From: Microbacterium marinilacus
Lineage (GTDB): Bacteria > Actinomycetota > Actinomycetes > Actinomycetales > Microbacteriaceae
Reading direction: 5' to 3'
NCBI RefSeq assembly: GCF_019753765.1
Contig: NZ_JAIJZW010000001.1
Coordinates: forward strand, 539,127-603,126
Length of the DNA stretch: 64,000 bases
The position numbers were made by a program, and so were the translations under genes. Under the pieces are notes generated by a model. That model did not search any database, had not been told where the DNA came from, and saw only the letters and a program-made list of their open reading frames with translations. Position 1 is the first letter of the stretch. The number at the start of each line of letters is the position of its first letter. Below, in pieces: positions 52,122 through 55,767 of this stretch.

Positions 52122-52134
52122 TAGATTCGCATCC
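52122..52134 (+). promoter_or_regulatory. Leaderless promoter of the FecBCD-like operon
   Basis: TAGATT (52122-52127), seven bases, GTG at 52135. The transcript would start at the start codon and run directly into the Fur-type box. Confidence 0.5.
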
Positions 52135-53163
52135 GTGCAAATGAGAATGAGAATCATTAGTGTCGGAGGTGCGCTCGCCGTCGGAGCCCTCGTGGCGGGC
52201 TGTGCGCCCGCGGCGGACGCTCACGGGGACACGGCGGCGACGGCATCCGGCTATCCGCTCGAGTACGACAACTGCGGGGAGACCGTCGAGGTGCCGCAGG
52301 CCCCGCAGCGGGTCGTGTCGCTGAACCAGTCGGCCACCGAGCTGCTGATCCGCCTGGGAGCGGCAGACCGCATCGCGGGCACCGCGTACCAGACCGACCC
52401 GGTGCCCGACGACATCCGCAGCGAGTACGAGGCCATCCCGCTGCTGAGCGACGGCATCCTCACGCACGAGGGGCTGCTCGAGGCGCAGCCCGACTTCGTC
52501 TACTCGTCCTACGCGTCCTTCCTCACCGCCGACAACGCGGGGGAGCGGTCCGAGCTGCACGAGCTCGGCGTCCCGACGTACCTCACCGAGTTCGACTGCA
52601 CCTACCACGCGTCCGTCGCCGACGCCTCCTTCGAGCTCCTGAACGACGAGATCCGCGACATCGCGCGCATCCTCGACGTCGTGCCGGCGGGCGACGAGCT
52701 CGTGGCGCAGCAGGAGCAGACCGTGCAGGACGGGCTCGAGATCGCCGAGGCGATCGACGGCGAGCCGTCCGTCGTCTGGTTCTACTCGACCGCAGCCTCC
52801 GCCGCGACGCCCTCCGTCGCCGGGCCGGGCGGCCTGCCGCAGCACGTCTCGGAGCTGCTGGGCGTGCGCAACCTCTTCGACGACGCGACGAACAAGTGGC
52901 CCGAGGTGAGCTGGGACGAGGTCGCGGCGCGGCAGCCGGACTACATCGTCCTGGCCGACCTCACCCGCGGATACCCCGGTGACACGGTGGAGGAGAAGGT
53001 CGATTTCCTCACGAGCGACCCGCTGATGTCGCAGCTCGAGGCGGTGCGCGAGGAGCGGTTCATCGTGGTGCCCGGCCAGTACATGGACCCGTCGATCAAC
53101 AGCGTCAAGGCGGTCCCGGCCGTCGCGCAGGGCATCGTCGACCTCCAGGAGGCCGGCCGATGA
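52135..53163 (+). CDS. ABC transporter substrate-binding lipoprotein, FecB/BtuF type (putative F420-0 or metallophore)
   Basis: The 342-residue protein has a lipoprotein signal with lipobox LVAGC (Cys23) and a helical-backbone binding fold: APQRVVSLNQSATELLIRLGAADRIAGTAYQTDP, then the C-terminal VSWDEVAARQPDYIVLAD. It matches, from memory, the actinobacterial cassette annotated as putative F420-0 transporter substrate-binding protein. That name rests on genome-context arguments. GTG at 52135 follows the -10 box by seven bases; the ATG at 52141 is an alternative. It is first in a four-gene overlapping operon. Confidence 0.85.
   Translation: MQMRMRIISVGGALAVGALVAGCAPAADAHGDTAATASGYPLEYDNCGETVEVPQAPQRVVSLNQSATELLIRLGAADRIAGTAYQTDPVPDDIRSEYEAIPLLSDGILTHEGLLEAQPDFVYSSYASFLTADNAGERSELHELGVPTYLTEFDCTYHASVADASFELLNDEIRDIARILDVVPAGDELVAQQEQTVQDGLEIAEAIDGEPSVVWFYSTAASAATPSVAGPGGLPQHVSELLGVRNLFDDATNKWPEVSWDEVAARQPDYIVLADLTRGYPGDTVEEKVDFLTSDPLMSQLEAVREERFIVVPGQYMDPSINSVKAVPAVAQGIVDLQEAGR
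52143..52161 (+). promoter_or_regulatory. Fur-family box across the first codons
   Basis: The 19-mer GAGAATGAGAATCATTAGT agrees with the classical Fur consensus GATAATGATAATCATTATC at 15 of 19 positions, and contains AATGA-gaa-TCATT with perfect 5-bp arms. It is the only long AT-rich stretch in the area and spells AGA, ATT and AGT codons that are rare in this genome, so the DNA sequence seems selected. It does not resemble a DtxR/IdeR box. A Fur or Zur-type regulator bound here would block leaderless transcription. Confidence 0.7.
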
Positions 53164-53918
53164 GCGTCTTCTCGTCGCTGGTGCGCCGGTGGGACGCCCA
53201 GCAGGCCGCCTACATCACGGATCGGGACGAGCGCTTCCAGGTGATGCTGGACGTCCTCGCCGCCGGCCCGGGCAAGGACGGCGCCCTCGTCGTGGTCGAC
53301 CTCGGCTGCGGACCGGGCAGCCTTGCGGCGCGCATCCTCGAGCGCTTTCCCGATGCCGTGGTCGTCGGGGTGGACTACGACCCGGTGCAGCTGCGGCTGG
53401 CGGCGATCGCCCTCGAGCCCTTCGGCGATCGCTTCATGCCGGTCGACGCGGACCTCGCGTCGCCCGGCTGGTCGTCGGCGCTGCCCGTCGAGCGGATCGA
53501 TGCCGCCGTCTCGTCCACGGCGCTGCACTGGCTGCCGCCGGCCGGGCTCGTCGCCGTGTACGCCGAGCTGGCGGGCCTCGTGAGGGAGGACGGCGTCGTG
53601 CTGGACGCCGATCACCTGCGGTTCGACGAGGCGACCCAGCCGTTGCTGAGCGCGCTGGCCGCGGGAGACGACGCGCGCACACAGGAGGCCGCGCGTGCGG
53701 CGGGCGTGCCGACGTGGGACGAGTGGTGGTACGAGGCGCTCACGGTGCCCGAGCTCGCCGCCCACGCGGACGAACGCGACCGGCGTTTCCGCGACCGGCC
53801 CGCCCCGCCCGACAGCCCGCTCGCCCTGCACCTGGAAGCGCTGCGCGCCGCCGGGTTCCGCGAGACGGGCACGGTCTGGCAGCTCTACGACGACTACGTC
53901 GTCCTCGCGCGACGATGA
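53160..53918 (+). CDS. Class I SAM-dependent methyltransferase in the ABC operon
   Basis: The 252-residue protein has motif I VVVDLGCGPGSLAARIL (about residues 45-60), the acidic motif II in VVGVDYDP, and SSTALHWLPPAGLVAVY near the third strand, the pattern of ubiE/trans-aconitate-type methyltransferases. Its target is unknown. It overlaps the lipoprotein stop and the permease start by four bases each, so it is translated with the transporter. It could modify the imported ligand in the cytosol. Confidence 0.9.
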   Translation: MSVFSSLVRRWDAQQAAYITDRDERFQVMLDVLAAGPGKDGALVVVDLGCGPGSLAARILERFPDAVVVGVDYDPVQLRLAAIALEPFGDRFMPVDADLASPGWSSALPVERIDAAVSSTALHWLPPAGLVAVYAELAGLVREDGVVLDADHLRFDEATQPLLSALAAGDDARTQEAARAAGVPTWDEWWYEALTVPELAAHADERDRRFRDRPAPPDSPLALHLEALRAAGFRETGTVWQLYDDYVVLARR

Positions 53919-54988
53919 CCGTCGCGACCGCCGTCGCCGCGGAGGCGGTGACCGCGCATCCTCGGCGGGCGAGGGGGCCGGCGGTGGCCGTGCTGGCCTC
54001 GGCGGGCCTCGTCGCGACGCTCGTCGCCGCGGTGCTCGTGGGAACGGCCGACATCGGGCCGCTGGACGTCGTCGGGATCGTCCTGCGGCACCTCGGGCTG
54101 GAGGCGCTGGCGCCGAGCCCGCCCGCCGCTCCGCTCGTCGACTCGCTCGTGTGGCAGTCGCGCGTGCCGCGCGTGCTGCTCGCGGGCGTGGTCGGAGCGG
54201 GCCTCGCGGTCTGCGGCGCGGTGCTGCAGTCGGTCACGCGCAACCCGCTGGCGGAGCCCTACCTGCTCGGTGTCTCGTCCGGCGCGTCCACCGGAGCCGT
54301 GGCGGTCCTGATCCTGGGGTGGGGGACGGGCGCCGTCGCGCTGTCGACCGGAGCCTTCGCAGGCGCCGTGCTCGCCTTCGGCATCGTCCTCGTGCTGATC
54401 GGCGGCGGGCGCGTCGCCAACCCCGCGCGCGTCGTGCTCACGGGCGTCCTGGTCTCGCAGTTCTTCTCCGCGGTGACCTCGCTGGTGCTCATGCTCGGGG
54501 GCGATGCCGACTCGACGCGCGGCTTCACGTTCTGGCTGCTGGGCTCGCTCGGCGGCGCGCGATGGCCGCAGACCCTGCTCGCGGCCGGGATCGTGCTCGC
54601 CGGCTGCGCGGTCTGCGCGGCGCTCGCCCCCGCCATGGACGCCTTCGAGCTCGGCTGGGACGCCGCGGCGGCGCTCGGCATCCGAGTGACGGCCGCGCGG
54701 ATCACTCTGATGACGGCCGCGGCACTGGTCACCGCCGCCGCCGTCGCGGCGTCCGGAGCGATCGGGTTCGTGGGGCTGCTCATCCCGCACGTCGTGCGGA
54801 TCCTCGCCGGGCCCGGGCATCGCCTGCTCATCCCGCTCTCTGCGCTGACCGGCGCGATCTTCCTCATCTGGGTGGACGCGTTCGCCCGCACGGCGTTCGC
54901 ACCGCACGAGCTCCCGGTCGGCGTGATCACCGCCCTGCTCGGGGCGCCGGCGTTCGCGATCGTCCTCCGAGGGGCGGCGGCGCGATGA
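53915..54988 (+). CDS. FecCD family ABC transporter permease
   Basis: The 357-residue permease has about nine or ten spans and the family pattern VPRVLLAGVVGAGLAVCGAVLQSVTRNPLAEPYLLGVSSGAS and GAIGFVGLLIPHVVRILAGPGHR, where GFVGLxxPHxxR is the coupling loop of siderophore, haem and cobalamin permeases. It overlaps both neighbours by four bases. It transports the ligand of the preceding lipoprotein. Confidence 0.94.
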   Translation: MTVATAVAAEAVTAHPRRARGPAVAVLASAGLVATLVAAVLVGTADIGPLDVVGIVLRHLGLEALAPSPPAAPLVDSLVWQSRVPRVLLAGVVGAGLAVCGAVLQSVTRNPLAEPYLLGVSSGASTGAVAVLILGWGTGAVALSTGAFAGAVLAFGIVLVLIGGGRVANPARVVLTGVLVSQFFSAVTSLVLMLGGDADSTRGFTFWLLGSLGGARWPQTLLAAGIVLAGCAVCAALAPAMDAFELGWDAAAALGIRVTAARITLMTAAALVTAAAVAASGAIGFVGLLIPHVVRILAGPGHRLLIPLSALTGAIFLIWVDAFARTAFAPHELPVGVITALLGAPAFAIVLRGAAAR

Positions 54989-55767
54989 CGGCGCCCGGGG
55001 CGCTGCGCGCCCACGGGGTGACGGTCGCCGTGAAGGGACGCGCCCTGCTCGACGAGGTCGACCTGGAGATCCGGCCGGGACGCTTCCTCGGCGTGCTCGG
55101 CCCGAACGGCGCCGGCAAGACGACGCTGCTGCGCGCCCTCGCGGGCGTCACGCGCCCGGACGCGGGGCGCGTGACGCTCGACGGACGCCCCGTCCACGCC
55201 GCCATCCGCCGCGCGACGGCCCGCCGGGTGGCCGTCGTCGAGCAGCACCACGACCTCCACACCGACCTGTCGGTCTTCGAGATCGTGATGCTGGGGCGGA
55301 CTCCCTACCGGCGCGCGTTCGGCGCCGCGAGCAGAAGCGACTCCGCCGCCGTGGAGACGGCGCTGGAGACGATGGGGCTCGCGTCGCTCCGATCCCGCCG
55401 ATGGTCGGGGCTCTCCGGCGGCGAGCGGCAGCGGGTGCACGTCGCGCGCGCCCTGGCCCAGGAGCCGGACGTGCTGCTGCTCGACGAGCCGACGAACCAC
55501 CTGGACGTGCGGTTCCAGCTCGAGATCCTCGCATTGCTGCGCGGGCTCGGCATCACCGTCGTGGCCGCGCTGCACGAGCTGAACCTCGCCGCGCGGTTCT
55601 GTCACGACGTCGCCGTGCTGGAGGCCGGGCGAGTGGTCGCCGCGGGGCCGGCGACCGAGACGCTCGACGCGCGGCTCATCGAGCGCGTCTACGCGGTGCG
55701 CGCCGTGGTCGAGACGTCCCCGCACACGGGCGCCCCGACGGCGACGTTCCTCGCCCCCACGGGATGA
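54985..55767 (+). CDS. FecE/BtuD-type ABC transporter ATP-binding protein
   Basis: The 260-residue ATPase has Walker A GPNGAGKTT (K45), Q-loop AVVEQHHDLH, signature LSGGERQRVHVARAL, Walker B VLLLDEPTNHLD and switch histidine AALHELNLAARFC. The wording is that of the iron-siderophore/cobalamin importer ATPases. It is the last gene of the operon and is followed at once by a bidirectional terminator. Ligand undetermined. Confidence 0.94.
   Translation: MTAPGALRAHGVTVAVKGRALLDEVDLEIRPGRFLGVLGPNGAGKTTLLRALAGVTRPDAGRVTLDGRPVHAAIRRATARRVAVVEQHHDLHTDLSVFEIVMLGRTPYRRAFGAASRSDSAAVETALETMGLASLRSRRWSGLSGGERQRVHVARALAQEPDVLLLDEPTNHLDVRFQLEILALLRGLGITVVAALHELNLAARFCHDVAVLEAGRVVAAGPATETLDARLIERVYAVRAVVETSPHTGAPTATFLAPTG

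Follow-up and report, generated by a model that had tools for sequence, protein, structure and literature searches.

Organization of the operon

The stretch analysed here, 64,000 nucleotides of the Microbacterium marinilacus genome (assembly GCF_019753765.1, contig NZ_JAIJZW010000001.1, positions 539,127 to 603,126 of the forward strand; hereafter the window), carries at positions 52,122 to 55,767 a four-gene operon for an ATP-binding cassette (ABC) importer of the FecBCD type and a methyltransferase, with a predicted regulatory box lying across its first start codons. Gene calls came from a home-made caller, and some gene starts are approximate. The features, all on the forward strand, are:

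52122..52127: -10-like hexamer TAGATT, 7 nt before GTG 52135; predicted leaderless promoter
52135..53163 (start at GTG 52135 or ATG 52141): FecB-type lipoprotein, the solute-binding protein (SBP); PF01497, lipobox LVAGC
52140..52161: predicted Zur operator AATGAGAATGAGAATCATTAGT, on the start codons, in two overlapping registers (52140 and 52146)
53160..53918: class I S-adenosylmethionine (SAM)-dependent methyltransferase; PF13649
53915..54988: FecCD permease; PF01032; TIGR03869 320.5 bits, cut-off 437.35
54985..55767: ABC ATPase; PF00005; TIGR03873 303.7 bits, cut-off 372.4

A preliminary description of this DNA had proposed a tight operon of lipoprotein, methyltransferase, permease and ATPase encoding a FecBCD-type importer, and both proposals hold: lipoprotein, permease and ATPase with the respective Pfam domains stand within one operon, and every junction is coupled by an overlapping ATGA. 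Matches to the SBP were found in 4 of 398 genomes of the family, 10 of 394 of the class and 4 of 396 of the phylum (cut-offs E 1e-65, 1e-70 and 1e-65, respectively, own genome included each time), and by these counts the cassette is a patchy accessory. An SBP 80% identical to that of the window is present in M. album. A search of the open-licence literature returned no paper on it, which is no proof of its absence from print.

A box across the start codons

The 19-mer GAGAATGAGAATCATTAGT (52143-52161) matches the Fur consensus at 15 of 19 positions, starting on the last base of ATG 52141 and covering ATG 52147, with GTG 52135 just upstream. No second match of this strength occurs on either strand of the window, and the best score among 100 first-order Markov sequences of window length, read in one orientation, was 13; the box reported earlier is real and well above chance. 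Its exact core, AATGANAATCATT, occurs once in the genome, at the window site, while up to two mismatches gave 14 forward and 16 reverse places, the reversed pattern giving 0 and 2; the core is nearly palindromic, so many places are counted on both strands.

The codons under the box are unusual for this genome. Among the first codons of the SBP gene are AGA (0.9% of Arg codons, used twice), ATT (1.1% of Ile), AGT (1.1% of Ser) and CAA (2.4% of Gln), and over codons 2-10 none of the 247 called genes was rarer, one being nearly equal (-10.60 vs. -10.65), which argues for selection on the DNA beyond that imposed by a signal peptide alone. The Markov controls, the rare codons and the clade conservation described below together rule out both chance and signal-peptide constraint as origins of the box. 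The start of the operon carries a palindromic Zur-type box, and TGAGAATGAGAATCA agrees, counted by hand, at 10 of 11 specified positions with the Zur motif of Streptomyces coelicolor, tGaNNatSatNNtCa (PMC5472717, in excerpt, as are the other papers cited here).

Company of the box in the genome

Allowing at most one mismatch, the core recurs at seven other places in the genome. Such sites lie at a znuA-like gene, at a znuC-like ATPase-permease pair with a Fur-family gene behind it, between aztA and aztB (each over its NCBIfam cut-off), at a COG0523 GTPase gene (ZigA-like, below cut-off) and a flavoprotein gene across a common intergenic region, and at two choice-of-anchor-M surface proteins that are over the domain cut-off and below that of TIGR03773. 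A matrix built from six of the seven, the window site excluded, gave the window site 28.5 bits, the top score in the window, and also marked the gene of a Cys-free L36 (24.3 bits). Loci L054 (6138-8857) and L058 (2020-5549) likewise have Zur-type boxes ahead of genes for choice-of-anchor-M surface proteins, one of them about 1100 aa long.

Eleven further places have two mismatches, one at a second FecBCD set with a CobW GTPase and one at another COG0523 GTPase; several others look like chance matches. In the stretches around five two-mismatch places (C23:213775, C23:424666, C28:40160, C29:64080 and C30:20617) no matrix score reached 14. Two matches were set aside: that at C1:400390, probably false, which adjoins LacI and sugar-binding-protein genes, and a 15.4-bit match at C29:141134 before the L28-L33-S14 genes, probably a ribosome-binding site because it reads AAGGAG...ATG.

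The second FecBCD set resembles the operon in its make-up:

L056 12534-16757 (C12:21533 onward in the window genome, G000): FecCD-ATPase-SBP set divergent from a CobW-type GTPase gene; behind the set come a TPMT-like methyltransferase and an HTH-cupin regulator

Between GTPase and importer stands a box of 29.8 bits, and the methyltransferase (214 aa) has no BLAST similarity to that of the operon at E 1e-5; this genome thus twice pairs a boxed importer with a methyltransferase. The same contig carries an Opp/Nik-type importer (L056 20-3383; SBP_bac_5, NikA/CntA-like below cut-off), which may be another metallophore importer or a nickel importer; its Zur-type box, at C12:12364, scores 21.9 bits.

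Since this type of box is common to the zinc-uptake genes of the genome, the regulator is best read as Zur (zinc) rather than Fur (iron). The preliminary description had predicted a Fur-superfamily box and a response to iron or zinc: the former stands, while of the latter the zinc part is favoured by the company of the box and the iron part is not, the response itself being a prediction. Control by DtxR/IdeR is ruled out, as there is no site for it at the locus, where the best DtxR-type match (11 of 19) is reached by 250 of 2413 background windows. That the operon instead encodes a ferric siderophore or haem importer under Fur, its box read by an iron-responsive paralogue, seems improbable. 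The genome does encode four Fur-family proteins, the nearest solved folds of the SBP include siderophore and haem binders, and a sister clade has DtxR-like boxes (see below); however, boxes of this type flank zinc genes, the boxed sites examined in this genome showed no iron gene, and the operon has no DtxR-like box.

Conservation among relatives

We compared 91 loci, the window included: 31 of the window clade, 30 with F420-0 transporter proteins over cut-off, 7 intermediate, 20 of a sister clade (clade B; related FecBCD sets at L100-L102, L104-L117, L121, L163 and L164) and 3 distant ones. L053, with a 60-residue match, was left out of the counts over 31 and 60 loci, and L135/L150, judged to duplicate the Jiangella locus L046, were omitted; L050/L051, L151/L153 and L046/L152 are near-duplicates among the 31.

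Of the 31 clade loci, 26 have a box of at least 10.5 bits, which lies on the SBP start codon in 22 and about 40-100 bp upstream in 4; none of the 60 other relatives has one. The threshold was picked after the scores had been seen; at 14 bits or more, 23 of the 31 and none of the 60 qualify, and 29 of 2413 background windows, some perhaps real sites, scored at least 10 bits. The conservation that had been suggested as a check on the box is thus found at orthologous cassettes. In a tree of 89 rows (L052 and L119, too short, were left out) all boxed rows fall within one 30-row clade (support 99/95), separate from the F420-0 clade (35 rows, 100/96) and from clade B (20 rows, 100/100). Treating the whole group of low-scoring relatives as one family was rejected, 18 of its 25 loci lying in a separate clade without a Zur-type box. 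L103 has a boxed SBP with a methyltransferase, but no permease or ATPase of the clade type behind them, and the clade-B locus L111 has a 14.0-bit site at -350, beyond the stretch covered by the box count.

DtxR-like boxes (at least 13 of 19 positions) occur in 16 of the 20 clade-B loci, in 0 of 30 F420-0 loci and in 5 of 2413 background windows, suggesting that clade B comprises iron siderophore importers. By their regulator boxes the relatives would therefore split into a zinc group (Zur-type), a probable iron group (DtxR-like, 16 of 20) and an F420-0 group with neither (30 loci). Splitting a loosely labelled transporter family by its regulators in this way helps both annotation and the choice of ligand tests.

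The window clade is also distinguished by its predicted promoters. In 27 of its 31 loci an in-frame start codon follows the motif TANNNT at a distance of 6-7 nt, an arrangement seen in none of the 30 F420-0 or 20 clade-B loci; the four clade loci that lack it have their box upstream of the start. Such a -10-to-start distance is typical of leaderless mRNAs in high-GC actinobacteria. The transcript is accordingly predicted to be leaderless, which would place the box within the first codons, at about +1 to +25. A scan for the sigma-70 consensus gave no promoter match.

Relationship to F420-0 and B12 transporters

The label of F420-0 importer, said earlier to be given to such cassettes elsewhere, is not borne out. 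It would make the lipoprotein a carrier of F420 without its glutamate tail, and the three F420-0 models, which describe a putative transporter of the same FecBCD superfamily, are indeed the best NCBIfam matches of SBP, permease and ATPase; yet all three proteins score below the curated cut-offs (SBP 208.1 bits against 392.4 for TIGR03868; permease and ATPase as listed above), and the SBP lies outside the clade of over-cut-off F420-0 proteins. Among 120 listed of 220 SBP relatives, many of them nameless, no source name says F420-0. Over-cut-off F420-0 SBPs occur in 97 of 396 genomes of the order, and in the best 30 of these 97, which the box scan covered, no locus had a DtxR-type box, or a Zur-type box near the SBP or elsewhere, the maximum of the Zur-type matrix over the whole length (about 3.8 kb each) being 7.0 bits. 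The idea that the cassette would be a good test of the F420-0 claim is not supported, the F420-0 loci forming a clade of their own with neither box.

The models presume a host without F420 synthesis except CofE. No fbi gene is present in the window, as had been noted, though the genome-wide search proposed at the time did find F420 genes: CofD and CofE homologues are each over cut-off, and a CofGH homologue reaches 905 bits (cut-off 1018), with its CofG part at 465 (cut-off 213). The CofH model alone gave 240 bits, below its cut-off, and the identity is settled by the CofGH and CofG models. The presence of CofE would fit import of F420-0, but with CofGH and CofD homologues encoded such import appears needless, and we regard F420-0 as an extremely improbable substrate.

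A Zur-controlled cobalamin or corrinoid importer, supporting B12-dependent enzymes when zinc is scarce, is a highly improbable alternative. The permease scores 221 bits against BtuC models (cut-off 461), and some relatives are named vitamin B12-binding protein. Against it, the cassette contains no B12 gene, some sister loci adjoin metallophore-type synthesis genes, and a B12 ligand would leave the methyltransferase unexplained.

The methyltransferase

A methyltransferase is found in or beside the cassette in 20 of the 31 clade loci and in 0 of the 60 others, the F420-0 loci being viewed with flanks of about 1.5 kb only; in L045, L160 and L161 it is divergent across the boxed start. The operon combines a FecCD importer with a PF13649 methyltransferase, as in an actinomycete variant of opine-zincophore systems: among actinomycete zincophore clusters, an extra methyltransferase is reported for those whose only importers are of the FecCD type (PMC7438024). 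The resemblance of the operon to these clusters extends to FecB, the ATPase and the zinc context (PMC7438024), and one such cluster, at locus L166 of genome G623, holds a relative of the methyltransferase (40% identical) between two FecBCD sets, adjoining MFS and CntM genes. In contrast, the window genome has no opine synthase CntM (PF10100, E 1e-20), no synthesis or export genes lie beside the cassette, and the SBPs of the L166 cluster are 25-28% identical to that of the window.

Opine synthesis in the window genome is ruled out by the lack of CntM. Of 394 genomes of the class, G623 alone gave a CntM match, and it lies outside the ten genomes of the class sample that bear the SBP (both samples are of equal size). 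Since the methyltransferase is kept where CntM is absent, action on an imported ligand would be likelier than a part in opine synthesis; the earlier suggestion that the enzyme may modify the ligand is retained. We hold it unlikely that the enzyme completes a zincophore of the cell's own, made by further genes at other places in the genome and recovered through the importer. Such methyltransferases have been proposed to decorate zincophores (PMC7438024), and the relative inside the CntM cluster of G623 fits this view; CntM itself, however, is missing from the genome (non-opine synthesis genes were not searched genome-wide) and is confined, within the class sample, to a genome outside the SBP-bearing ten.

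Among solved structures the methyltransferase is closest in fold to CysG and BelI, O-methyltransferases that act on acids of the 3-isopropylmalate type (PMC11408123). Methyltransferase genes also occur under Zur elsewhere: the Zur regulon of Mycobacterium smegmatis (MSMEG_6049-6055) joins ABC transporter genes to a class I methyltransferase with two predicted Zur boxes, 498-fold up in a zur mutant (q = 1.00) and classed as Zur-dependent (PMC7174638); the likeness to the operon is one of description. In Kribbella (L047 9820-10663) a second PF13649 methyltransferase, about 32% identical, lies downstream of the cassette at a Zur-type box of its own (37.9 bits).

Probable import of a zinc chelate

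Sequence and comparison establish the box, its company of zinc genes, its conservation in the clade and the pairing with a methyltransferase. We conclude, with a probability of about 0.7, that this Zur-boxed operon for a FecBCD-type importer and a methyltransferase serves to import a zinc chelate (zincophore), possibly foreign-made, under zinc starvation. The transporter type is ordinary and the combination is new: a Zur-boxed FecBCD importer is joined by a methyltransferase but by no opine synthase. Zinc-loaded Zur, bound on the first codons of a leaderless gene, would block transcription, and the operon would be expressed as zinc falls; the lipoprotein would then bind the zinc-loaded chelator at the cell surface, permease and ATPase would carry it inward, and the methyltransferase may modify the chelator for release, inactivation or re-use. 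Methylation of the chelator would be a little explored step in bacterial zinc uptake.

Several observations weigh against this interpretation. The right half-site of the box is imperfect. Two Fur-family proteins were scanned and neither reaches a curated Fur or Zur cut-off, nor does the Fur-family gene directly following the boxed znu-type genes reach that for Zur, so it is the neighbouring genes that suggest the name Zur; within the Fur superfamily, boxes for iron and for zinc look alike. Five of the 31 clade loci have no clear box (L044, L122, L123, L154 and L155), and L050 and L051 have weak ones (10.7 bits). L123 (genome G239) has a 17/19 DtxR-like site at about -195 from the SBP match and no Zur-type box, so that the regulator can be swapped, possibly here inside the Zur clade. 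The methyltransferase was not found in 11 of the 31 clade loci (some incomplete), including L048-L052 with their synthesis-type genes, and the CntM cluster of L166 has no strong box by the window-genome matrix (best 13.0 bits). No zincophore synthesis gene lies near the cassette. Lastly, of the metal-binding His pair of CysG and BelI only the first is kept (H123), the second aligning to the invariant W124 (His-Trp in place of His-His) and the motif Asp having no placement in the alignment; a carboxyl-methyltransferase mechanism is at most suggested by the fold, with the motif only half kept.

A more specific version of zinc-chelate import, which may be called import and disarm, is speculative: zincophores of other microbes would be imported under Zur and methylated at the chelating group so that zinc drops off in the cell, the pairing of FecBCD importer and methyltransferase having been recruited under Zur at least twice in this genome, with the operator inside the first codons of a leaderless gene.

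Candidate ligands

The zinc complexes of opine-type or aminopolycarboxylate chelators, the latter similar to ethylenediamine-disuccinate (EDDS), are by analogy the first ligand candidates. EDDS is a Zur-controlled chelator of Amycolatopsis (PMC9252823, PMC6103462), and [S,S]-EDDS and coelibactin are Zur-controlled actinomycete metallophores (PMC6103462, PMC9252823). Dap-type synthesis genes stand beside sister importers of the present cassette; unlike in those systems, the window cassette has no synthesis genes, and the likeness to EDDS is an analogy only. L050 has SbnA-, SbnB- and LysA-like genes (all below cut-off), a HisC-like aminotransferase and a MATE exporter beside its importer, and by clustering L051 and L052 share part of these genes. 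In L048 clustering points to a decarboxylase-like gene, and the first residues alone point to SbnB- and HisC-like genes. Lyase-type genes (PF00206) were present in all six genomes searched and so do not mark the L050 cluster as a producer of EDDS. With metallophore-type genes beside related importers, the metallophore import foreseen in the preliminary description is judged likely, as a prediction.

At L157, another sister importer without the methyltransferase, an MFS-type gene is divergent at the box, and SbnA-like, GHMP-kinase and DUF364 genes follow, the last a family connected with heavy-metal chelation; the locus is a possible undescribed metallophore cluster. At L162 a Zur-type box lies between the FecBCD set and a gene presumed, from its length and order, to be of the MFS type.

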